The notes under the pieces were generated by a model that was not told the origin of the DNA, did no database searches, and worked only from the letters and a program-made list of their open reading frames with translations. A stretch of DNA of 26,606 bases from a virus, in the IMG/VR virus record IMGVR_UViG_3300029319_000403, positions 1 through 26,606 of that record; one strand, given 5' to 3'. The stretch's first letter is position 1; every line of letters begins with the position of its first letter. The translations under genes and the position numbers were made by a program. This document shows positions 3,753-23,672 of this stretch, in pieces.

Positions 3753-5076
3753 ATCTATCCTTTGTGAATTTAATAGTTGGTTCTTGTCTAAGTTTATTTC
3801 TATAACCACTAAAACCTATTCTAACACCCCAACCTAAGTGTTCGATAATGTCTTTTTTAGTAACTGATTTTTTCGTATGAATAAAATCAACTATTTTTTT
3901 GTAGCTATCTGTTTTTTGTTTTATTGTTTTTAAATTTAATATTGTTTCATCAAGCATATTATTAAACTGAGTTATCGCAGATTCCCACTTACACTCTTTA
4001 AATCTATCTAATGAACGTTTAGAATATTCCTCTCTAATTGATACATCATCTAAAACCTCTTCTAACTTTTCTAAAAAGTCATTACTATCGTAATAGATAC
4101 CTGCAGAACTTGCAAGTTCACAATAGTAATCAGCATTTAAAAATAAGTAAGGAACACCTACACTCATACCATCCGTAGCTGATACAGCCCATCCACTGTA
4201 TTTCTGTTTTGCACATACACCAATGTAACAAGAAGATAACTTAGAAAAATATCCGAATCTATCGTATTTATCATTTGTTAAATATTCTCTACCCTCAGTA
4301 GAATCTGCAAGTGGAACCCATACCTCAAAGTCTTGTCTTTGTTCCCAAAGTTTATCCATTTGTTCTAAAAACCACGGATAGTTTTTGTATGTGTGAGGGC
4401 GATGATTGAATACGATAATTTTTTTATCTGTAGTTTGGTTCTCGTATTTTGGAATCTCCCAACCAAGATATTGTGGTTCAAGAATCTCATCTAATCTTTT
4501 AACTACACTATTATTAAAATGGTTTCTAGCATTTTTTAGAATTAACTTCTTCTGTCCTTGTGTATTTATACCACACTTATCCATCTCTAAAATACCTAAG
4601 AAGTTTACATCCATCATAGTCATACTATAGTTTGTAATCTCAGGAAACTCAGTCCAATGGGTGTACCCAATAAATCTTGGTTCCATATTTGTATTATTTA
4701 TGATTGCATTTTTTAGTTGTAAAGTATGTTCAGGCAAATGAGAATACACAATATCATAATCTCTTTTTTTCCATTGTAATGCTTTTACTATTGTATCATA
4801 ATCAAAATGAGTTCTCATAGCATTTGGGTATGATGGTAATGGTAATACTAATTGTTCTGTATTAGGAAAATCTAAACTATTAATATGATGTGGTGAAAAT
4901 ATTGTAAAATGTATATCATCACGTATCTTATTTAGCTCTCTGATAATATTACATAATACTACGACATAAGAATCTTTTTCTAAATCTTGTTGATATGTTA
5001 TGTTCGGATATACGAGTATATTGTACTTATACTCTTTATCGCTTGTCTTATCTTTTGTAAAATTTAATATATTCAC
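3733..5076 (-). CDS. GT-B glycosyltransferase with C-terminal helical (winged-helix-like?) tail
   Basis: The 447-residue protein starts at GTG 5076, overlapping the Mom-like gene's TGA (GTGA); no in-frame ATG lies near the N-terminus, and the expected first strand (YNILVYPNITYQ) follows the start closely. The second Rossmann-like half begins near residue 220 (KKIIVFNHRPHTYKN). It includes FEVWVPLADS and the donor-site region SATDGMSVGVPYLFLN, followed by a DSNDFLEKLEEVLDD helix, typical of GT-B retaining transferases. From about residue 385 there is an extra domain (YKKIVDFIHTKK, VTKKDIIEHLGWG, then a basic stretch) that looks like a winged helix. A DNA-binding tail on a phage GT-B enzyme, next to a Mom-like gene, suggests glycosylation of modified bases as in T4. 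Sugar and acceptor are unknown, and a surface-glycan role is the alternative. Confidence 0.8.
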   Translation of the reverse strand: MNILNFTKDKTSDKEYKYNILVYPNITYQQDLEKDSYVVVLCNIIRELNKIRDDIHFTIFSPHHINSLDFPNTEQLVLPLPSYPNAMRTHFDYDTIVKALQWKKRDYDIVYSHLPEHTLQLKNAIINNTNMEPRFIGYTHWTEFPEITNYSMTMMDVNFLGILEMDKCGINTQGQKKLILKNARNHFNNSVVKRLDEILEPQYLGWEIPKYENQTTDKKIIVFNHRPHTYKNYPWFLEQMDKLWEQRQDFEVWVPLADSTEGREYLTNDKYDRFGYFSKLSSCYIGVCAKQKYSGWAVSATDGMSVGVPYLFLNADYYCELASSAGIYYDSNDFLEKLEEVLDDVSIREEYSKRSLDRFKECKWESAITQFNNMLDETILNLKTIKQKTDSYKKIVDFIHTKKSVTKKDIIEHLGWGVRIGFSGYRNKLRQEPTIKFTKDRYETTNS

Positions 5077-5693
5077 GAAAATATCTTTCTTGTCTTTTTA
5101 TCTAGTGGTAAAATGTAGATGTGTTTTGGTGGTAGTGGTTCAGTCCAAATATTCTCATCACCTTTTTTCATACGTTGTCTAATATTTTCAAACTTAGGAC
5201 TTTTCTTAGTTAACATTCTGGCGTGATATTTCTCACCATCAGCTATCAACATCCTACTCGGTTTTGTCATCCCTAAATGTATAAAGTTAGTTGCTTTGTA
5301 TATAACACCCTCGTGTCCTTGAAAAGTATCCGCATAGGACAGAATAAGCTTGTAATTTGTATGCTTTTTTAACCAACTAATGGCTTTACCAATAAAGTAA
5401 CTTTCTGTATTCTTGACTGTATCATCAATACAACAAAGTCTGTTTAACTCGATAACCCTATCAGGTGTTTCTGGCATATAACTTTCTGCAACACCAGCCA
5501 TAGCTGGTATTCCAAACATCATAGCACCAATTAATTTTGGTATCCCAAACTTTCCACTTGGTGAAAATAATCCGAAACAATAACTAATATGTAAACCTCT
5601 TACACTTTTTGAGTAATGATTTTTTCTAACAAAATCTTCTATTGCATTTGTAGGTACTTTTTCTACAAAATAATCTGTAACTTTATCTTCCAA
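5073..5693 (-). CDS. mom-like: Mom-like DNA adenine modification protein
   Basis: This 206-residue protein matches the pattern of phage Mu Mom, a GNAT-fold enzyme that converts adenine in DNA to an N6-carbamoylmethyl (acetamido-type) derivative and so protects it from restriction. Visible landmarks: NHYSKS (25-30), the hydrophobic strand PKLIGAMMFGIPA (52-64), VIELNRLCC (80-88), and SYADTFQGHEGVIYKATNF (119-137), the most characteristic block. A basic C-terminal tail follows. The start is TTG 5693, with AGGCG upstream; no ATG is available before the conserved N-terminal motif. It overlaps the DUF4338-like gene by 11 bases and the glycosyltransferase by four, so translation of all three is probably coupled. 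Mu Mom needs host Dam for expression; no GATC control region is obvious here. Substrate base and chemistry are inferred from the family. Confidence 0.8.
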   Translation of the reverse strand: MEDKVTDYFVEKVPTNAIEDFVRKNHYSKSVRGLHISYCFGLFSPSGKFGIPKLIGAMMFGIPAMAGVAESYMPETPDRVIELNRLCCIDDTVKNTESYFIGKAISWLKKHTNYKLILSYADTFQGHEGVIYKATNFIHLGMTKPSRMLIADGEKYHARMLTKKSPKFENIRQRMKKGDENIWTEPLPPKHIYILPLDKKTRKIFS

Positions 5694-6882
5694 CTTCGCC
5701 TATATATTTTTCTCTTGTTTGTTCCCAATCTAATCCTATGATATCTCCATAGAATAAAATGTCATCTTTTAACTTGTTGGAAGTTAACAATTTTTCATAT
5801 CTTTTACAAGCCTTTTTTTTCCACCAATCCATAACACCATCTACATCTTGTTCAAATCTTGGTTTTAATCTTAACTCACTTTCAGATATTTCACCTCTTA
5901 GGTATTCCCTACTATTTTCATAGTAAGTTAGGTAGAATACGCCACGTTTAAATCCGTGTTCATATGCAGTTGTCTTTATCCCTAACTCTTGAAATATAAG
6001 ATTTAATATTCTTTGTTTTACACCCGTAACAGGACCTGAATCCCTATCTTTACTTTGTATGTGTTTTGCATACTTTTCTGATTTATTATCTTTGTACCAA
6101 TCGTGCCACTTCTGAAAAAAATCATCATCAGGTTTTAATGAAATTCTACCAGCAGATTCACCAAGTGTTTTCCAATAAGGAATACCATTATACATAGAGT
6201 GTATACCATATAGTGATGTGGTAGTAACTCCAACTAACTTCTCTCCATATAACTCTTCCCATTGTTCTCTAAACGTTTTAGTAGATATCAATGCTGCGAT
6301 TAATTTACCACCTAAGAAGTTAAATCCAAATGGTTGTGTAGAACATATGGTTGTAGCTATAGTAGAGTTTTTTAATTTACCATCGGTTAATTTATTATCT
6401 TTACTCCAACCAATATAAGAATCTCTAGCACTAATAGCTATAACATCGGAACCAAGACATATTACACCAAGTATCTTATTACTTGTCTCATCCATAACAA
6501 TAAACTTTACGTTTCTACCTGGATTAGCTGTAAACTCCATCGTATGAATAAGTCTACGAATAAGAGTCCAATATTCATTTTGTCTTGAATCACCTTGTTT
6601 GATTGGAATGATTTTTGGTTTTATTGATTGTATCTCTGCTAGTGTTGTTTCTCTATCTAATAAATTTGTTGGTTTCCATAACTTAGGTTTAATCGTATGA
6701 ATCTTGCTAGCTTTTTGTCTAATTTCATAATCATTATGATTAAACTCTTTCCACTTTTTATAAAGTGTAGATTCTTGGACACTCATAGTTTTAAGAAAAT
6801 CCATATGTTCTATGAATTTTTGCTTTTCATCTTCGTAGATGAACTTATCTGGATCCTCGAAAAAGTTTTCGAATAACTCCAT
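5683..6882 (-). CDS. DUF4338/DruA-like protein, partner of the Mom-like gene
   Basis: This 399-residue protein has a pattern I associate with DUF4338, the domain of Druantia protein DruA, and with uncharacterised phage relatives. Key blocks are SARDSYIGWS (151-160), STQPFGFNFLGGKLIAAL (181-198), LVGVTTTSLYGIHSMYNGIP (216-235) and WKTLGESAGRI (237-247). The order RDxYIGW, then a GGKL helix, then YNGIPYWKTLG parallels the acetyltransferase-like layout of Mom (compare GVIYKATNFIHLG), so the two neighbours may share a fold. N-terminal (1-100) and C-terminal (250-399) parts are charged and helical; the latter has CKRYEKL and WEQTREKYIGEVGR. ATG 6882 follows AAGG. The stop overlaps the Mom-like start. 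Biochemical function is unknown; a role in DNA modification or recognition is inferred from position and resemblance. Confidence 0.6.
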   Translation of the reverse strand: MELFENFFEDPDKFIYEDEKQKFIEHMDFLKTMSVQESTLYKKWKEFNHNDYEIRQKASKIHTIKPKLWKPTNLLDRETTLAEIQSIKPKIIPIKQGDSRQNEYWTLIRRLIHTMEFTANPGRNVKFIVMDETSNKILGVICLGSDVIAISARDSYIGWSKDNKLTDGKLKNSTIATTICSTQPFGFNFLGGKLIAALISTKTFREQWEELYGEKLVGVTTTSLYGIHSMYNGIPYWKTLGESAGRISLKPDDDFFQKWHDWYKDNKSEKYAKHIQSKDRDSGPVTGVKQRILNLIFQELGIKTTAYEHGFKRGVFYLTYYENSREYLRGEISESELRLKPRFEQDVDGVMDWWKKKACKRYEKLLTSNKLKDDILFYGDIIGLDWEQTREKYIGEVGR

Positions 6883-6904
6883 TTATAACCTTACATTTTT
6901 GTTT

Positions 6905-7423
6905 TTAATTATTAGTGCTAACCCAATCTAACTTTACGATATTAGCATCCGTAAATTTATATGGTGGAGCACCTGGTGATTCTAATACATCTATTCGATT
7001 CACAAAACGGGCATTCATAACATCACGTACTTGATAGACGCCATCTTTTGCACCATCTTTTGTTCCACGTAGAAGCACAAAGTCGCCAAAGTTTAATGCA
7101 CCCCCCCAACGCTTCAGAAGATTCCTACTAACCGCTATAAATTTATATTCACTCGCTTTAGTGATTTTTATTCGCGTTCCATCCGCCAGAATGTCCGGTG
7201 TAGCATCTGTCTGTTGCGTAACTGGATGATACATTGTAACATCCACTTCTATTCCATTCTGCTCGTATTCTTTGAGTTGTAACTTTAACTCATCTCGTTC
7301 TTTTACCACCACATCGAGCATTTCTTTCATAGTGTGTTTGTTTTTTTCAATAAACTTCACACTAACTAAACCATTAATAATAACTAGCATTACCATCATA
7401 ACACTTACTAATAGCTTTCGCAT
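6905..7423 (-). CDS. Signal-anchored 3D-domain (double-psi barrel) protein, possible cell-wall enzyme
   Basis: ATG 7423 was chosen because AGAGGT lies nearby and a textbook signal or anchor sequence begins there (MRKLLVSVMMVMLVIINGLV); the frame from 7459 would put 12 polar residues in front of it. A coiled coil follows at about 30-55. Residues 58-150 form a 3D domain related to MltA lytic transglycosylases and RlpA: VDVTMYHPV, ADGTRI (D81), AVSRNLL, NFGDFVLL (D114), VRDVMNARFVNRIDV (D134, D145). The aspartates are the hallmark of the family. With 172 residues it is an exported or membrane-tethered protein that may cut or bind peptidoglycan, acting in lysis or envelope remodelling. It is the first gene after the gap at 7424-7538, in front of the modification block. 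Confidence 0.75.
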   Translation of the reverse strand: MRKLLVSVMMVMLVIINGLVSVKFIEKNKHTMKEMLDVVVKERDELKLQLKEYEQNGIEVDVTMYHPVTQQTDATPDILADGTRIKITKASEYKFIAVSRNLLKRWGGALNFGDFVLLRGTKDGAKDGVYQVRDVMNARFVNRIDVLESPGAPPYKFTDANIVKLDWVSTNN

Positions 7424-7469
7424 AGTATTACCTCTATTGTTACTTATAAATATGTTCATATTTTTCTAA

Positions 7470-7498
7470 ATTTAATACTTTTTTGATATTAATGTCAA
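7470..7498 (-). promoter_or_regulatory. Candidate sigma70-like promoter before the 3D/modification block
   Basis: On the minus strand a perfect -35 box TTGACA occupies 7498-7493. Possible -10 hexamers are TATTAA (15-base spacer, 7477-7472) or TTAAAT (17-base spacer, 7475-7470), each four of six matches. It lies in the 115-base gap between the genes ending at 7539 and starting at 7423, about 50 bases before the start codon. In such AT-rich DNA the -10 box is weak evidence; the -35 box and its position in the widest minus-strand gap after 1594-1732 support it. Confidence 0.4.
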
Positions 7499-7538
7499 GC
7501 TTTTTTTTTCAAAAAAGTTTTTATTAATGTTTGATTCC

Positions 7539-7943
7539 TCAGTACCAGGTAGGTGGTGAGCTTTCAGGAAAATTGTCAGGTAGTGGGTCATCACCATTAT
7601 TCCAACCCCAACCATCAGCCACACTCATTGAAACTCCTGCTGAAGATGTAGCTATGTATTCCCAATCATTACCAAATGGTAATGTTGAGCCTGATAAGAC
7701 TAATGCAGTTCCAAATCCATTCCAACTTCTAAACGCCGTTTCTAGTTCTGAACCTGATGCTGCATAGTTGTTATCGTGTAACGATTTGGTGCTGTAGTAA
7801 TATGCAGAGCAAGAGTGAGTAGCTTCTGTTAAGAATCTTACTTCTCGTTCTTCCATATTAATAGAGCCAGAGTTAGCCTCAATACGTTGCTGTTTATGCC
7901 ACGTTGGCTTATAATATATAATTGCTGTGTATCTGTATCCCAT
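7539..7943 (-). CDS. Unknown protein, 134 aa
   Basis: ATG 7943 is preceded by GGAG with good spacing. The protein begins with a beta-rich stretch (MGYRYTAIIYYKPTW) and contains many Ser, Tyr and Gly residues (THSCSAYYYSTKS). It ends in a Trp/Asp/Pro-rich tail (VADGWGWNNGDDPLPDNF), unlike the Lys-rich proteins around it. No signal peptide or membrane helix is visible. It resembles small decoration or tail-tip-type proteins in composition only; I do not recognise it. It is the last gene before the 115-base gap, so it may end the upstream transcript. Confidence 0.65.
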   Translation of the reverse strand: MGYRYTAIIYYKPTWHKQQRIEANSGSINMEEREVRFLTEATHSCSAYYYSTKSLHDNNYAASGSELETAFRSWNGFGTALVLSGSTLPFGNDWEYIATSSAGVSMSVADGWGWNNGDDPLPDNFPESSPPTWY

Positions 7944-7970
7944 AATTTATTCTCCAAAAATAAATATCAA

Positions 7971-8552
7971 TCAAAGACTAAATTCTATTCCCACTTTGAA
8001 CTTGTAGTACTTTTTATCTTTAATATCGTTGTAATCGAATATATTACTAAATACTATTTTATCCGTAATTTTCCAATTTAAACTTACATTCTCTTCCATA
8101 TCAAATCTACTATCACCTGTAAGTTCATTTCTAAATAAATACCCATCCCACTTAGCCTGTAAAGATAATGTGTGATTTATTTCTTTTTTCTTCACAACAC
8201 CTATGGATACTCCACTTTCAAATTTCTCATCTGAGTATAAACCAGTATATCCAAATGAGTAATCACCTTGGCGATAACGAATATCAGCTTTACCATATTT
8301 TAAGTTACGAGATGTCTTATTAACATATTGTGGTTTGATGTAAAGTAAGCCAGGTTTCCACTCAAACCATATTTCATCATCAATATAGTTTTGACCTAAC
8401 TCACGTTCCCAATCTCGTTTGAGATACATAGTTTTAGATTTAAATCCTAATGATAACTCATAATCATCTTTTGTGATTGATTCATCATTAGGTGTTCTCA
8501 TAGCAAAGCTACTGAACAAAACTAATCCGCTAAAAAATCCTTGTAGAATCAT
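7971..8552 (-). CDS. Exported beta-strand-rich protein, outer-membrane-barrel-like
   Basis: ATG 8552 (MILQGFFSGLVLFSSFA) is preceded by GAGGAG and starts a short signal-like hydrophobic segment; the frame from 8597 lacks both. The mature part of this 193-residue protein is built of alternating polar/hydrophobic strands (YELSLGFKSKTMYLKRDW, ADIRYRQGDYSFGYTGLYS, VSLNWKITDKIVFSNIF). It ends in FKVGIEFSL, similar to the last strand of outer-membrane beta-barrels, although the final residue is Leu rather than Phe. It overlaps the 70-aa membrane gene by 23 bases. Possible roles are an outer-membrane protein made during infection (receptor masking, superinfection exclusion) or a lysis factor. Function is not established. 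Confidence 0.6.
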   Translation of the reverse strand: MILQGFFSGLVLFSSFAMRTPNDESITKDDYELSLGFKSKTMYLKRDWERELGQNYIDDEIWFEWKPGLLYIKPQYVNKTSRNLKYGKADIRYRQGDYSFGYTGLYSDEKFESGVSIGVVKKKEINHTLSLQAKWDGYLFRNELTGDSRFDMEENVSLNWKITDKIVFSNIFDYNDIKDKKYYKFKVGIEFSL

Positions 8553-8742
8553 TCTCTGTCTCCTCTCGTGGATTAATGTAATAAGGTGGTGGAACATTTT
8601 CTATTGAATCAGATGGTAATTCTGTTCTTATACCTAACCTCTCTTCAAATTTATTTAAGTCCTCTTCTAATGTACCATTGTAATCTTTCACTATGATAAC
8701 AAGTGCTAGAACACAATGAAAATAAAACCAGGTTAAGTTCAT
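8530..8742 (-). CDS. Small single-pass membrane protein, 70 aa
   Basis: ATG 8742 (MNLTWFYFHCVLALVIIV) has a strong AAGGAG and overlaps the preceding stop by four bases (ATGA); the longer frame from 8829 lies inside the neighbour. A hydrophobic N-terminal helix of about 18 residues is followed by a hydrophilic acidic domain with a Pro-rich stretch (ENVPPPYYINPREE), probably periplasmic. C10 sits within the hydrophobic helix but not in a convincing lipobox. Its place between a multi-pass membrane gene and a barrel-like gene suggests an envelope-spanning set. Confidence 0.6.
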   Translation of the reverse strand: MNLTWFYFHCVLALVIIVKDYNGTLEEDLNKFEERLGIRTELPSDSIENVPPPYYINPREETENDSTRIF

Positions 8743-9050
8743 ATTTGTATCTCCTTCAAATGTTTTGGAACATTTTGTTGTATATAATGTTGTATCACAA
8801 ACGCTTCTATAAGATGAGTAAAGAACCAAAAGAAAGAAAGTAAAGGTATATAAATTCTAAAGTTTAACTGTAAAACAGCTATACCTAACCAAGCTAAGAA
8901 AACCATACCAATACTCTTGGTTACGAAACTAGCTCCACTAAATGCTAAACTCATTACACTACCTCGTGCTACACAAACGTACACGTTAACAGCCATATGT
9001 AAAAGGTTTAAGAATATAGGTGCTAGAACACCTAATAAAAAATACATCAT
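8739..9050 (-). CDS. Multi-pass inner-membrane protein, 103 aa
   Basis: The start at ATG 9050 has AAGGAG five bases upstream; a second ATG follows directly. Three or four membrane helices can be drawn: about 2-26, 33-62 and 66-92 (FRIYIPLLSFFWFFTHLIEAFVI), with a polar C-terminus (NVPKHLKEIQI). Size and topology suit a class I holin, but they also suit small accessory membrane proteins, so the lysis role is only a guess. It is the first of three consecutive, overlapping envelope genes (9050 to 7971). Confidence 0.6.
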   Translation of the reverse strand: MMYFLLGVLAPIFLNLLHMAVNVYVCVARGSVMSLAFSGASFVTKSIGMVFLAWLGIAVLQLNFRIYIPLLSFFWFFTHLIEAFVIQHYIQQNVPKHLKEIQI

Positions 9051-9051
9051 T

Positions 9052-9789
9052 TTAACTCCTTATTGCTTTACTAAACCAAATCTGTAGTGATAATCTATCC
9101 ATAGCCATATTTGATGTTTTGGCTACCCTATGATTTACACCTGTTCTCAAAGTTACAAGTTTGTTTGGTGTTGGCTTTATCCACCAACCATCTATAACCT
9201 CACCTTGAGGTGCATCTTCACCTGCTTCAATTAGTAACTCTCCGTGCCACCTATCCATCCAAGTACTATGTACGTAAAAGCTACCTGCACCAACTCTTTG
9301 CATTTGTTTTGCATTGAAAACCTCTTGCTCGTTTTCATCTAAATCATAAGCACGAGCAGGATCGTTATGCCAATCAATACCACCACCTGGTGAATTCCAT
9401 TTGTAACAATGTATATCTAAGTAATCAAAATCTGAATCAAATGTTGTTACAAACTCTTGTTTCATTTCAAATATACGCCTAACAAGTGGTTGAAAATAAA
9501 CATTCAATTCTTCTATAGAATATGGTATCTCATCATATACTTTTTGATTAGTATCAAGTTTTTTATGTGAGTATGGATTGTATTGTTTATGCACAAACCC
9601 ATTTTCACCAAATATACCAACTTGCATTATAGTAGTTTTATTATAATCTGATACAAGATTTCTATCCCATATAGCTCTCTCGTGAGTATGCTTCATAGTA
9701 TCTGTTACATCGATAAATTTATTATAACAAAACCATTGAACATTTTGAAAGTCTATTTCAGATAATAGATTTTTTGTTACTGAAACCAT
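9052..9789 (-). CDS. 2-oxoglutarate/Fe(II)-dependent oxygenase
   Basis: The 245-residue protein has the HxD...H iron-binding triad of this superfamily: H141 and D143 in GGIDWHNDPA, H220 in RTGVNHRVA. The 2-oxoglutarate-binding arginine is R232 in MDRLSLQIWF. YLDIHCYKWNSPGGG precedes the triad, and the strand GSFYVHSTW lies between the ligands. Such enzymes hydroxylate proteins, lipids, small molecules or DNA bases. The overall look is that of the prolyl-hydroxylase-like oxygenases common in T4-like marine phages. It lies between the head-associated genes and the envelope genes, so context does not reveal the substrate. A link to the DNA-modification block 2 kb away is possible but not shown. 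ATG 9789 lacks a clear ribosome site. Confidence 0.85.
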   Translation of the reverse strand: MVSVTKNLLSEIDFQNVQWFCYNKFIDVTDTMKHTHERAIWDRNLVSDYNKTTIMQVGIFGENGFVHKQYNPYSHKKLDTNQKVYDEIPYSIEELNVYFQPLVRRIFEMKQEFVTTFDSDFDYLDIHCYKWNSPGGGIDWHNDPARAYDLDENEQEVFNAKQMQRVGAGSFYVHSTWMDRWHGELLIEAGEDAPQGEVIDGWWIKPTPNKLVTLRTGVNHRVAKTSNMAMDRLSLQIWFSKAIRS

Positions 9790-9799
9790 TTATTTTTTT

Positions 9800-10600
9800 T
9801 TATTGATTAGGATTTTTTAAGTAGTCCCTTGCTTTATTTATGTCATTACGAACAACTGCAATTTTATTCATCCACCAGCTTGGTAGTGAATCTTCATCAT
9901 TTAACATAGTTAGCATTTGTAATACTTCTTGTGCATCCTCTGCAACTAACTTCATACTTCTTTTAGCACTAGCTACATCCGTGTGTCCATCTTCAGTTAT
10001 TGATTCTTGTATAGCCACTTGGAATCCACCTTTAGAACTTTTTAAAACAACCATATTTTTAGTTATGGTACTTTTTCTTAAATTTTTCATAGATTGTTTA
10101 TGTACTGCACTTTGAGCATCTTTTAAATTTTTATATATCTTTGGTAATCTTTTAAACTTCATAGTTTCAGCTGATTCGTTCTTTATACAATTAGGATATC
10201 TTTTACCAAATAATACTTTTGTTTTACGAGTAGGATGTATCTTATATCCTTTCCAACACTTTTCACATAAGCATTGTTTACCCTCTTTTAATTCTTCATC
10301 TTCTTCACCTGTACCACCTGGTGATTTTAATTTATAAGTTGGGTCTTCAGCTGACATAACATAACCACAACCCTCAAGTTCTAATCTAATTAATTCTCTT
10401 AACTTATCTAAGGTTTCTTGTCTTACCTTGTTAGGTAATCCCTTGTGTTTTGTTGAAGCCATTTTTTTAGTTGATTTCTTTTTCATTGATTTAGCTGCAT
10501 CTTTTACAGCCTTACTTACTTTACTCGCTGGAATCTCACCCTTTTTATAAGCGTGAACCAATCCCATAAATCTTTGTTGTGCTTTACTTACTGATGGCAT
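9800..10600 (-). CDS. Modular head-region protein: DUF3008-like N-terminus, Cys module, C-terminal helical domain
   Basis: Three parts are visible in 266 residues. Residues 1-60 (MPSVSKAQQRFMGLVHAYKK, then ASTKHKGLPNKV) match DUF3008. Residues 107-139 form a Cys module (KQCLCEKCWKGY, then FGKRYPNC) that recurs at the start of the 412-aa protein (11977-13215). Residues 204-266 (DGHTDVASAKRSMK, LPSWWMNKIAVV) are a helical domain. LKE (104-106) stands before the Cys module and ITE (201-203) before the last domain; both fit the (I/L/V)-x-E cleavage pattern of T4-type prohead proteases. I infer, without proof, that the protein is packaged in the prohead and cut at module borders. The ATG follows the upstream stop by one base (TAA-T-ATG) and no strong ribosome site is seen. 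Confidence 0.7.
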   Translation of the reverse strand: MPSVSKAQQRFMGLVHAYKKGEIPASKVSKAVKDAAKSMKKKSTKKMASTKHKGLPNKVRQETLDKLRELIRLELEGCGYVMSAEDPTYKLKSPGGTGEEDEELKEGKQCLCEKCWKGYKIHPTRKTKVLFGKRYPNCIKNESAETMKFKRLPKIYKNLKDAQSAVHKQSMKNLRKSTITKNMVVLKSSKGGFQVAIQESITEDGHTDVASAKRSMKLVAEDAQEVLQMLTMLNDEDSLPSWWMNKIAVVRNDINKARDYLKNPNQ

Positions 10601-20438: not shown

Positions 20439-23400
20439 TTACCTCACAAACTTTAGAGCTCCTAATATTTGATTTACAGGTGCAAATGCGCCCGTAAACT
20501 TGTACATATCACCATTATATTTGAAAACCAAACCCTCTGATGGCACAATAGAGTCTGAACCACCTATATTTTGTATTTTTTCAAGATTTTTCTTTAATAA
20601 ATTGAGAGTTTTGATATCTTTTGATGACTTGAGTGTTGATATTGCCGACTTCAAGTCTTTTTTGATGTTTTTGACTGCTTTTTGAGGGTTTACTGCCAAA
20701 TATCCGTCTAAATTCTTCAATATTTCAGCACCTAACTCTAAAAATAGTAGTTCAAATGGTTTGATGTGTTCTTGTTGTAACTTTTTCAAATCAAATTTAT
20801 CTGTGGCCTTAGACCATTCCAAAAATTTATCGTGTTTTATATTTTTTTTATCTAATCTAAACGATTTGTCTAAGAAAGCCCATCGTCTTGTCAAAGAATC
20901 TAAAACATTTTTTGGTATTTTGTATTTCATTTGTTTTGACGCATTGAAAATATACTCTCTCCAATACATCTCGTGATACATACCCAATGTATCATTATCC
21001 TTCAGTTTATAAATAGTCTGTAATTTTCGTAACTTGCCTAAAAAATATTTTTTCTTTTTAGTGTAGTCTTGCACCTTTGGTAAGTTCAGTATAACAGGCT
21101 TAGATATCTTAAATCTCTTCTGAATGTTCTGATTTATCTGTCTAATCATCCCCTCTAACATCCTTGCACTATCTTTTACTTGTTTTTTAGTTTGTCCTGA
21201 CTCATCTACCTCTACACTACCATGAAAAAACAACTCTGATACGTCATAGTCTATAACATTTGCTGTCTTTGGATAAACTATCTCTAAATTCATCCAACGT
21301 TTACCCTCACCAAATACTTTTTCTTTTTGTTTTTCTGATAATTTATTTACTGCAGACTCTAAATCTTTCATCGCACCCACAAATGCTTTCTCAACATCTC
21401 CTCTACCTGCAAACTTTGATTTCATACCTTTTACGTCAAGTGATGATTCACCAAAGTTTTTTAGATTACCCTTGTTTCTTGCAGCGACTAACTTATTATT
21501 CTTCCAACTAATCATTAGATTTTGTCCATCTAACTTTTCAGTAACCTTATCTTCTCTGTTTAGTTTTCCTTGTAAACTCATATCGATTATGTTTTTGAAA
21601 TCACCAAATGTAAGATGATGATTATCAAATGGATGTGACATATGTCCTGCCGCTCCTCCCATAAGCAATAACTCCTTTTCTTGTAACTCTTGTGTCCACC
21701 AATCAGGTGAAAACAATTTTGTTTCTGATAAACTCTTTTGATATTTTTGTGCTGCTTTATTACCTTTATTCTTTGATACCCACCTAACTGCACTTTGTTT
21801 AGACACCATCTTTTTTCTACCACGTGGATTTGGGTTCTTTACAGTATCAGGCATTTTAGTCTTTTGTGGTTCTTTCTTTTTGTCTGCTCCCTTTTTCTTT
21901 TTATATGCACGTATCGCACCAAACCCTAATCCTGCAGCCATTGTACCAACATTACCTAATATCTTTGTGTAAGGTGCTGTCAAACCTGTAGTAGCACCTA
22001 CAGCTGTAAGAACTAAAAACTTAGTTCCCATCTCACCACCAAACATATCAGCAAGTGAATAATCTCCACCCGAAGCGGCTGATGCTACTGCTGATAAATC
22101 TAAATCATATTCGGGATCACCTATAAATGTCATCTTAGTCCAAGCATAAGTAACAGCGGATGCTGCACCTAAACCCATAACCTTTTTTAGTTTTGGATTT
22201 TTTTGTAAGAAGTTATCCAACTTCTTCAATCCTTTTTCTTTCTTTTGTCCAAACTTTGTACCTGCTAACTTTTTAGCGATTTTATTAGGAACTACATTTA
22301 GAATTTTTTGATATGCTTGGAAACCCCTTTTAGCACCATCTAATACTTTGTCTACACTAAAATCATTTAGTTTAGCAACAACAAAAGTATTTTTGTTGTT
22401 CATAGTTTGTTTTATTTTACTGAAAGGTTGCTTTGCTTTTTTACTAAAATCTTTTAGAAAGTTATCAAATCTTATACCCTCTTCTATCGTCATAGTTTCA
22501 AACAAGATAGATTCGGATAGTTTTTTTCTATCTGTATTTTGTTGACTACCATCTGCACCTGCTGCTACAGGAGCTAATACTGATACACCTGTTACTTCTG
22601 TATCTGATTTCAATCCCATCCACTTTACAACTTCAAAACCTATGTTTTGTAGAACTCTGTTATTGATATGATTTTTATAACGGGCTATTGATTTACGTGG
22701 TGATAATGTAGTACCATGTGCAACTGCAGAAACAATTCTTGTTTTCAACAAAGGATCGTATGCAGGGTCTTGTGCTTTATTACTAACTATATAATCTATA
22801 ACCTCTGCACCTAAATCACCCAACCAATCTTTACTAACATCCATATAGTCAGCAAAGTTTGCATAAAACGATACAGGTCCATCATCCACGTGTGCGATTG
22901 TAGACACGTTACTTTCTGATAAAAACTTTTCTATGATTTCATTCATAGATTTAAATCTTGTAGTCAATAACTTATACATTGTATTGTCTGAATATCCAAA
23001 TAACTTTTTGAATAATTTTTTTCTATTAGGTTCTGATATTTTATTACTACCCAATACTTTTCTCATTACCGTACCACTAACATCCTCACCTGCTAACTTT
23101 ACTGAAACGTGAGGTGCTATCATCACATAACCATTTTCTAAAAACCCATTCATGTCTCCACCTTTTTTATAAGGTTGAAAGTATTTACCACCTGATAATC
23201 TACTTGCATCTTTTTTACCAAGTGCGAATACTGCGGCAGTTTCATTTTCATCAAAGTATTTGAAAACTTCTACAGGTTTATATGGTTGTTTTGATTTGAA
23301 TATATTTTTGGCAGGTACACCCATCTTTACCATATGTGCTTTTTTCTCTCTGAAGTTTAGTGGGTGACGTGGTGGTTTCTTGATATCGGATGTGACGATA

Positions 23401-23672
23401 TAGACATCATCAAATTGTCTTTTCAATCTATCGAAGACTGCTTTGTGATGAGGACCGAATGGTTGAAAACGGCCAGGATATATTGCTATTGTTTTTTTGA
23501 TTTCTTTTTGTTCAGTTACATCCTCTGAATATACGGACCTTTGGCCATTCTTGTCAAGCTTTTTTTTCGCTTTTTTTATCTTTTTTTGACTTGGGGATGG
23601 TAATGTTCCTGCGGGAGCTCCAAACTCTTCTTTAAGAAAAGGTGATATTAACCATTTGGTAAGTTTGTTCAC
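20439..23672 (-). CDS. Multidomain protein: NMN-adenylyltransferase-like + hydrophobic region + polynucleotide-ligase-like domain
   Basis: The 1077-residue protein starts at GTG 23672. Domain 1 (60-205) is a HxGH-type nucleotidyltransferase: AIYPGRFQPFGPHHKAV (62-78) and VSGTVMRKVL (198-207, cf. ISxTxxR), as in NMN adenylyltransferases. Residues 254-385 form a separate unit (VDDGPVSFYANFADY). Residues 495-590 are Gly/Ala-rich and hydrophobic and could insert in a membrane. Domain 4 (651-1077) has covalent nucleotidyltransferase motifs: KLDG with nucleophile K713, RNKG (732-735), WMNLEIVYP (793-801), EGLVFK (1046-1051) and K1058 in MYKFTGAF, as in RNA/DNA ligases. LSE occurs at three of the domain borders (251-253, 385-387, 648-650) but also inside domain 4 (778-780). 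Sitting directly upstream of the packaging genes, it may be a structural or packaged enzyme. Its activity is inferred from motifs only. Confidence 0.78.
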   Translation of the reverse strand: MNKLTKWLISPFLKEEFGAPAGTLPSPSQKKIKKAKKKLDKNGQRSVYSEDVTEQKEIKKTIAIYPGRFQPFGPHHKAVFDRLKRQFDDVYIVTSDIKKPPRHPLNFREKKAHMVKMGVPAKNIFKSKQPYKPVEVFKYFDENETAAVFALGKKDASRLSGGKYFQPYKKGGDMNGFLENGYVMIAPHVSVKLAGEDVSGTVMRKVLGSNKISEPNRKKLFKKLFGYSDNTMYKLLTTRFKSMNEIIEKFLSESNVSTIAHVDDGPVSFYANFADYMDVSKDWLGDLGAEVIDYIVSNKAQDPAYDPLLKTRIVSAVAHGTTLSPRKSIARYKNHINNRVLQNIGFEVVKWMGLKSDTEVTGVSVLAPVAAGADGSQQNTDRKKLSESILFETMTIEEGIRFDNFLKDFSKKAKQPFSKIKQTMNNKNTFVVAKLNDFSVDKVLDGAKRGFQAYQKILNVVPNKIAKKLAGTKFGQKKEKGLKKLDNFLQKNPKLKKVMGLGAASAVTYAWTKMTFIGDPEYDLDLSAVASAASGGDYSLADMFGGEMGTKFLVLTAVGATTGLTAPYTKILGNVGTMAAGLGFGAIRAYKKKKGADKKKEPQKTKMPDTVKNPNPRGRKKMVSKQSAVRWVSKNKGNKAAQKYQKSLSETKLFSPDWWTQELQEKELLLMGGAAGHMSHPFDNHHLTFGDFKNIIDMSLQGKLNREDKVTEKLDGQNLMISWKNNKLVAARNKGNLKNFGESSLDVKGMKSKFAGRGDVEKAFVGAMKDLESAVNKLSEKQKEKVFGEGKRWMNLEIVYPKTANVIDYDVSELFFHGSVEVDESGQTKKQVKDSARMLEGMIRQINQNIQKRFKISKPVILNLPKVQDYTKKKKYFLGKLRKLQTIYKLKDNDTLGMYHEMYWREYIFNASKQMKYKIPKNVLDSLTRRWAFLDKSFRLDKKNIKHDKFLEWSKATDKFDLKKLQQEHIKPFELLFLELGAEILKNLDGYLAVNPQKAVKNIKKDLKSAISTLKSSKDIKTLNLLKKNLEKIQNIGGSDSIVPSEGLVFKYNGDMYKFTGAFAPVNQILGALKFVR

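Follow-up and report, generated by a model that had tools for sequence, protein, structure and literature searches.

Phage-encoded outer-membrane beta-barrels are widespread, and to our knowledge few of them have a tested role. The phage protein Cor is a small lipoprotein, and overlapping gene pairs occur among some spanins. The available part of one report (PMC11436027) describes the inactivation of the receptor FhuA by Cor, which is a published precedent for exclusion, and the available part of another (PMC9836094) describes the co-transfer of lambda Lom with the holin genes of lambdoid phages, where cooperation in lysis was suggested.

The window considered here, by which we mean the whole analysed stretch of 26,606 nucleotides (positions 1 to 26,606 of the IMG/VR record IMGVR_UViG_3300029319_000403), covers most of a virus record of 26,905 bases and carries three overlapping genes, designated A, B and C. 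A preliminary description regarded their products as an envelope-spanning set, serving either lysis, as a holin with spanin-like parts, or modification of the host surface against superinfection. A membrane or envelope character of all three proteins is supported by the helices predicted in A and B and by the barrel model obtained for C.

Layout of the locus and its source phage

Table 1. Coordinates of the genes under study, their associated signals and the long relatives of C
Feature	Sequence	Position	Strand	Basis
Gene A, three-helix membrane protein, 103 aa	Window	8739..9050	-	ORF, model, relatives
Gene B, 70 aa, ATG start, one helix, acidic tail with Pro/Tyr	Window	8530..8742	-	
Gene C, 193 aa, predicted outer-membrane beta-barrel with 12 strands	Window	7971..8552	-	
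C codons 1-17, hydrophobic N-terminus, signal-peptide-like	Window	8502..8552	-	
AAGGAG, ribosome-binding-site-like, for A	Window	9056..9061	-	Sequence
AAGGAG, ribosome-binding-site-like, for B	Window	8751..8756	-	Sequence
GAGGAG, ribosome-binding-site-like, for C	Window	8560..8565	-	Sequence
c0, neighbour of the trio and not a member; membrane-anchored, 3D-like domain; candidate wall-cutting enzyme	Window	6905..7423	-	
Long C relative	L088	2636-3727		
Long C relative	L089	2887-3975		
Long C relative	L091	2636-3724		

The overlaps of 4 and 23 bases given in the preliminary description are exact according to the ORF coordinates: A and B share positions 8739 to 8742 (ATGA), while B and C share positions 8530 to 8552, given that C starts at the ATG at 8552. 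An alternative in-frame ATG for C is found at 8597. We place the start at 8552, since this codon is preceded by a ribosome-binding site (GAGAGGAG) and the relatives do not conserve the longer N-terminus that a start at 8597 would give. As each of the three has relatives in other contigs, A, B and C are deemed genes rather than chance ORFs. For the neighbouring c0, the earliest possible start lies at 7459.

The terminase, portal and head protease of the window match phage families, with Microcystis phage Mel-JY01 (55.7%) and Flavobacterium phage immuto (54.3%) as the best matches of the terminase. The annotation of immuto includes T4-like Gp20 and Gp23, and the natural reading is that the window derives from a T4-like myophage. 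None of A, B and C is listed in the 49.9 kb of immuto; among the INPHARED phages, positions 6900 to 10600 have no DNA match and the three proteins no protein match, and neither PHROGs, Pfam nor NCBIfam returned a family for any of the window's three proteins. The T4-like late promoter motif TATAAATA occurs 9 times versus 5.1 expected (at least 9 in 10 of 100 shuffles), and none of these sites is located 5' of A, B or C. The Bacteroidetes-type promoter TANNTTTG occurs 51 times versus 40.5 expected (3 of 100 shuffles reach 51) and appears by eye unlinked to gene starts, and sigma-70-like sites between 6500 and 11000 number 18 versus 22.4 expected.

A 2OG-Fe(II) oxygenase-like gene (9052 to 9789) lies immediately upstream of A. 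Elsewhere in the window, a gene encoding a Mom-like modification protein (5073 to 5693) overlaps a DruA-domain gene (5683 to 6882), which perhaps places DNA modification beside counter-defence, and a 1077-aa ORF (20439 to 23672) displays a match to a phage cytidyltransferase family confined to residues 53 to 251.

Distribution of A, B and C and the relatives of A

Relatives were gathered at 18 loci for A and 13 for B, and at 9 (by sequence) and 59 (by profile) for C. A table of 78 contigs, including the window, was compiled with profiles of A, B, C, c0 and c28, the last being a one-helix gene of 46 to 52 aa. This table is not de-replicated and contains many fragments, includes short or partial C copies, and holds one stretch per contig where stretches overlapped; absences refer to the fetched stretches, mostly reaching at most 6 kb from the match.

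C is present in 60 of the 78 contigs. B is immediately upstream of it in 11, two of which also have c28 within 250 bases; in 11 others c28 occupies the position of B just 5' of C (for instance, L005 5660-5806 and L045 2686-2826), and neither gene is found there in 38, three of which are too near the contig end to judge. Within the fetched stretches, C thus comes without B in 49 of 60 contigs and without both A and B in 43 of the 78, A occurs without B and C in 10 (9 of them also without c0), and B without C in 8. Of the 18 contigs that have A or B but no C, 10 carry A without B (9 with no further gene of the set and 1 with c0), 2 carry A, B and c28, and 6 carry B without A (5 with no further gene of the set and 1 with c0). 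All three genes are found together in 7 of the 78 contigs, and in bacteria A and C occupy separate places of the same genomes (G002, G003, G004 and G143).

The preliminary description had named independent occurrence of the genes in relatives as the observation that would speak against a single envelope-spanning set, and this is what the contigs present: the A-B-C order is limited to 4 of 78, namely the window with its near-twin L002 and a second pair of near-twins, L003 and L004. On this independent occurrence we reject the trio as a single unit. Since A, B and C are scattered independently, the trio is a local arrangement, and the three proteins very likely do not constitute one machine. They would rather be neighbours within one narrow clade of T4-like marine phages.

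Protein A displays hydrophobic stretches at residues 1-28, 41-68 and 68-86, and its model, of moderate confidence (pLDDT 76, pTM 0.55), comprises helices at residues 2-29, 32-59 and 64-92; of the three to four helices first attributed to it, three are therefore retained and the fourth is not. It is well conserved (73% mean column identity), with the invariant polar residues N15, H18, H79 and E82 in its helices, and a structure search gave a best Z of 7.0, which is uninformative for a helical bundle. Matches to A were detected in 14 of the 245 genomes of the phylum that also bears C, 8 of them with E below 1e-37, and in none of the 299 genomes of the phylum of G001, in a search run without a positive control. 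In 9 of the 14 genomes (G002, G003, G004, G143, G144, G138, G119, G120 and G121), genes encoding photolyases or related proteins lie no further than about 2 kb from A, and no photolyase gene was found near A in the stretches fetched from the other five (G108, G109, G122, G123 and G127). The nine contexts are not independent events, because five of them have one common arrangement. According to Pfam, the neighbours of A in L118 and L115 include FAD_binding_7, DUF2256, DPRP, DNA_photolyase, and a MerR plus B12-binding regulator; bacterial A relatives near photolyase, DUF2256 and MerR/B12-type genes are seen at L114-L122 and L128-L130. The bacterial relatives of A possibly represent a light-stress membrane protein family.

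The window's A shares 49-58% identity with its 8 nearest host rows. In a tree rooted on L123 and L124, the phage copies nest within the host copies, with three host rows placed among the phage ones on weakly resolved branches, and this nesting makes a host-to-phage transfer of A likely. A would be an auxiliary protein of the inner membrane and stem from a bacterial family often found in photoreactivation gene clusters. As for B, the one-helix protein of the preliminary description is recovered as a single hydrophobic stretch (residues 1-19), with no charge before the helix and one Lys after it, a pattern compatible with either side of the membrane for its tail. B, seen here in phages only, may be a small accessory membrane protein, sometimes translated just 5' of C, and as a guess it may hand C on.

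The neighbour c0 features an N-terminal hydrophobic anchor and a domain linked stepwise to PF06725. It matches gp056 of Cellulophaga phage phi13:1 and a crAss-like relative (E of about 1e-8 and 3e-11), gp056 matches L140 (E of about 4e-15), and L140 reaches PF06725 at 21.8 bits versus a cut-off of 23.8. No match was obtained for c0 against PF06725 directly or in a profile comparison with clear 3D proteins, and a PDB search with c0 returned nothing meaningful. Of the 60 contigs bearing C, 32 also have c0. Six contigs have the end of A overlapping c0, counted from its earliest possible start, by 4 bases; the actual start of c0 is probably further in.

Predicted barrel fold of C and its chromosomal copies

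Modelling with AlphaFold2, based on 45 aligned relatives, predicts C to be a closed antiparallel barrel of 12 strands (pLDDT 90.9, pTM 0.82), in agreement with the beta-rich protein described previously. Foldseek with this model retrieved NanC as the top match (E 2.8e-6) and, among viral barrels, those of Aeromonas phage phiAS5 (E 3.9e-5) and Vibrio phage nt-1. By VIA-align, the model gave Z values of 14.7 with Tsx (rmsd 3.4, 170 aligned), 14.2 with KdgM (rmsd 3.4, 154 aligned) and 14.1 with NanC (rmsd 3.6, 163 aligned), which exceed the level quoted by the tool for models without a clear match. The C-terminal beta-signal of such proteins follows the pattern polar-x-Gly-x-x-hydrophobic-x-hydrophobic. 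C ends in KVGIEFSL, which fits it, and G188 is invariant in 45 of 45 rows. The 45-row profile matched no PDB chain at E<=1, and Pfam returned four weak names and no convincing family for the 45 members; Phage_OMP (PF24653) matched 2 of the 45 (best E 0.0066), none above the curated cut-off, and did not match the window's C. Going by the model, C is very probably an outer-membrane barrel. A barrel enzyme of the OMPLA, LpxR or PagP type was also considered and dropped, as the 45-row alignment contains no conserved histidine.

Even members with 26% identity to the C of the window still have an open frame, and the family has 12 invariant residues across 45 sequences and conserves charged residues in strands 1-6. 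With the topology taken from strand order and the last strand assumed to end in the periplasm, entropy averages 1.40 bits on the extracellular side versus 1.71 bits on the periplasmic one (permutation p 0.0067). The extracellular hairpin 46-60 (0.66 bits) and loop 78-84 (1.03 bits) are the conserved elements, and four of the five periplasmic turns are above 2.2 bits. Since the outer loops 4-6 are variable (1.76-2.19 bits), the conserved patch belongs to strands 1-6. The conservation of C points outwards, whereas for a spanin-like function one would expect the side facing the periplasm to be the conserved one. This pattern fits receptor masking and substrate binding at a channel mouth alike, and does not separate the two.

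The N-terminus of C is hydrophobic with a small-x-small motif, and modelled strand 1 (residues 11-19) falls mostly inside this signal-peptide-like region of codons 1-17, the two together covering window positions 8496-8552 (codons 1-19). In the structural alignment, residue 10 of the C model is paired with residue 1 of the KdgM chain, and residues 11-19 (1.17 bits) are more conserved than residues 1-10 (1.45 bits). C usually has no longer N-terminus, since an in-frame stop lies 0-9 codons 5' of its start in 35 of 45 loci. Three phage contigs encode a second, barrel-like relative of C of 362-363 aa, about 2 kb from C (Table 1), which to judge from its sequence seems to carry a separate signal peptide followed by a similar strand; the 362-aa relative of phage locus L089 was found in none of the 245 genomes of the phylum, again in a search without a positive control. 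Two accounts may be offered: the signal of C may escape cleavage and also form strand 1, or AlphaFold2 may have used the signal to close a gap in the model.

A pattern-limited scan of species genomes identified four C loci. L093 is a phage-like contig bearing B and C, while L094-L096 are bacterial contigs with one common arrangement, in which C is flanked by genes that we take to be cupin-like (before) and DUF302-like (after); L094 has folD at a greater distance, and both L094 and L096 have T9SS sorting tails. Among the 245 genomes of that phylum, seven match C, with full-length copies in L094-L096 and L100, a partial copy at a contig end in L101, a divergent ORF in L102 and a 40-residue stub in L103. 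The full-length copies, in 4 of the 245 chromosomes, stand alone with no A or B adjoining, and no B was detected in the seven C-bearing genomes by a search without a positive control. In L100, C (1501-2061) is near tatD and aspS. The stub (L103 1495-1617) sits beside a TatD-like gene, at a site such as the one where L100 carries full-length C, and we read it as a chromosomal copy in decay. C is thus mostly viral and patchy in bacteria (60 contigs versus 7 of 245 genomes), a distribution that suits exclusion or defence better than a core nutrient porin. A tree of 41 sequences puts the four full-length copies from hosts inside phage diversity, within a 20-row group (98/95) that includes phage L081 and L061-type phages, and the window in a different clade; because this tree has a midpoint root, the direction of transfer of C can only be inferred.

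The 16S gene of G002 contains an 18-base sequence that we take to be the target of the FISH probe SAR406-97. It is present in 70 of the 245 genomes of the phylum versus 0 of 299 in the phylum of G001, counts in which many drafts may miss the 16S gene, and our literature search did not find the probe sequence in print. The phylum bearing A and C is probably SAR406/Marinimicrobia, and for the host of the window's phage we put membership of SAR406 at an even chance. The relatives of c0 point elsewhere, to Bacteroidota phages (Cellulophaga, Tenacibaculum, crAss-like), and T4-like viruses have been predicted for marine Bacteroidetes in the available part of PMC7198788. No paper on Marinimicrobia phages with outer-membrane proteins was found in the literature search. 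Through A and C, a group of T4-like phages is connected by two genes to an uncultured phylum of the ocean.

Possible roles of C and comparison with known systems

C is predicted to be exported and then to insert as a small barrel of 12 strands in the outer membrane of the host, where it would act at the surface of the infected cell and may mask or alter the receptor of related phages, that is, exert superinfection exclusion. Since the conserved rim faces outwards, the cell surface is the most likely site of action, and remodelling of the infected-cell surface, most likely for exclusion, is the use of C that we tentatively favour; in this respect the preliminary description still holds. The same rim, however, could equally be read as a substrate-binding mouth, loops 4-6, which are also extracellular, vary, and the solved barrels that best match the model are transporters. 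As the main alternative, C may be a substrate-specific pore that raises the uptake of nucleosides, oligosaccharides or acidic sugars during infection, which the likeness to the nucleoside channel Tsx and the sugar porins KdgM and NanC and the charged residues conserved in strands 1-6 would suit, although a barrel fold by itself shows no function and C is too rare in bacteria (7 of 245 genomes, four loci in the pattern-limited species scan) to resemble a core nutrient porin. Exclusion is preferred to such a pore, which we consider somewhat unlikely, given that phages commonly carry C whereas bacteria rarely do, in one case only as a stub. The existence of bacterial copies, one of them a stub, might also suggest a captured bacterial barrel that is roleless and decaying; this is highly improbable, as an open frame kept down to 26% identity and 12 residues invariant in 45 sequences need selection.

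In the lysis reading, A would be the holin for a wall-cutting c0, and B and C would help to open the outer membrane. The adjacency of A, a small protein with three helices, to the first possible c0 start in six contigs is what best supports A as a holin; the stepwise link of c0 to the 3D domain, its presence in 32 of 60 contigs with C, and the Lom/holin co-transfer described in the available part of PMC9836094 point the same way. A, however, has conserved polar residues in its helices and bacterial relatives, often near photolyase genes; C lacks a lipobox, occurs alone in bacterial chromosomes and is most variable in its periplasmic turns, and B is missing from 49 of the 60 C-bearing contigs. 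Chromosomal relatives exist for both A and C, which disfavours a dedicated holin role for the former and a spanin partnership for the latter. A is probably not primarily a holin, and lysis as the role of these genes is quite unlikely. The holin-and-spanin proposal of the preliminary description keeps weak support from the c0 candidate downstream and loses it where C has no cysteine, no fixed pair exists, and A is conserved with relatives in bacteria.

Returning to exclusion, its elements may be combined: C would be the exclusion barrel of SAR406/Marinimicrobia phages, captured by some bacteria as a chromosomal anti-phage barrel, the phages would have taken A from photoreactivation clusters, and the N-terminus of C would serve as both signal and strand 1. 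That all of this holds together is rather unlikely. With 45 aligned members, a confident model, an outward conserved patch and chromosomal copies, the C family makes receptor masking directly testable against transport.

Compared with known systems, A resembles class I holins in having about 100 aa and three predicted transmembrane helices, and differs from holin sets by its chromosomal relatives. Overlapping genes, as in B and C, are seen among some spanins, but C contains no cysteine and hence no lipobox, unlike two-component spanins, and the pair is not obligate, C occurring without B in 49 of 60 contigs and B without C in 8. KdgM, NanC and Tsx are small monomeric channels whose 12-stranded barrel is common to nearly all of C, whereas no sequence relation was found and strand 1 of C is within the putative signal region. 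Phage-encoded outer-membrane barrels are already known, and the C family is unmatched in PHROGs, Pfam, NCBIfam and INPHARED as searched. Like C, lambda Lom, the phiAS5 and nt-1 barrels and Phage_OMP (PF24653) are phage-encoded membrane barrels; the match to Phage_OMP is below the cut-off, and the likeness to Lom is by analogy only, through the available part of PMC9836094. Unlike C, a predicted barrel, Cor is a lipoprotein. What we propose for C comes close to Cor in that a phage protein alters a receptor at the outer membrane, as the available part of PMC11436027 describes.
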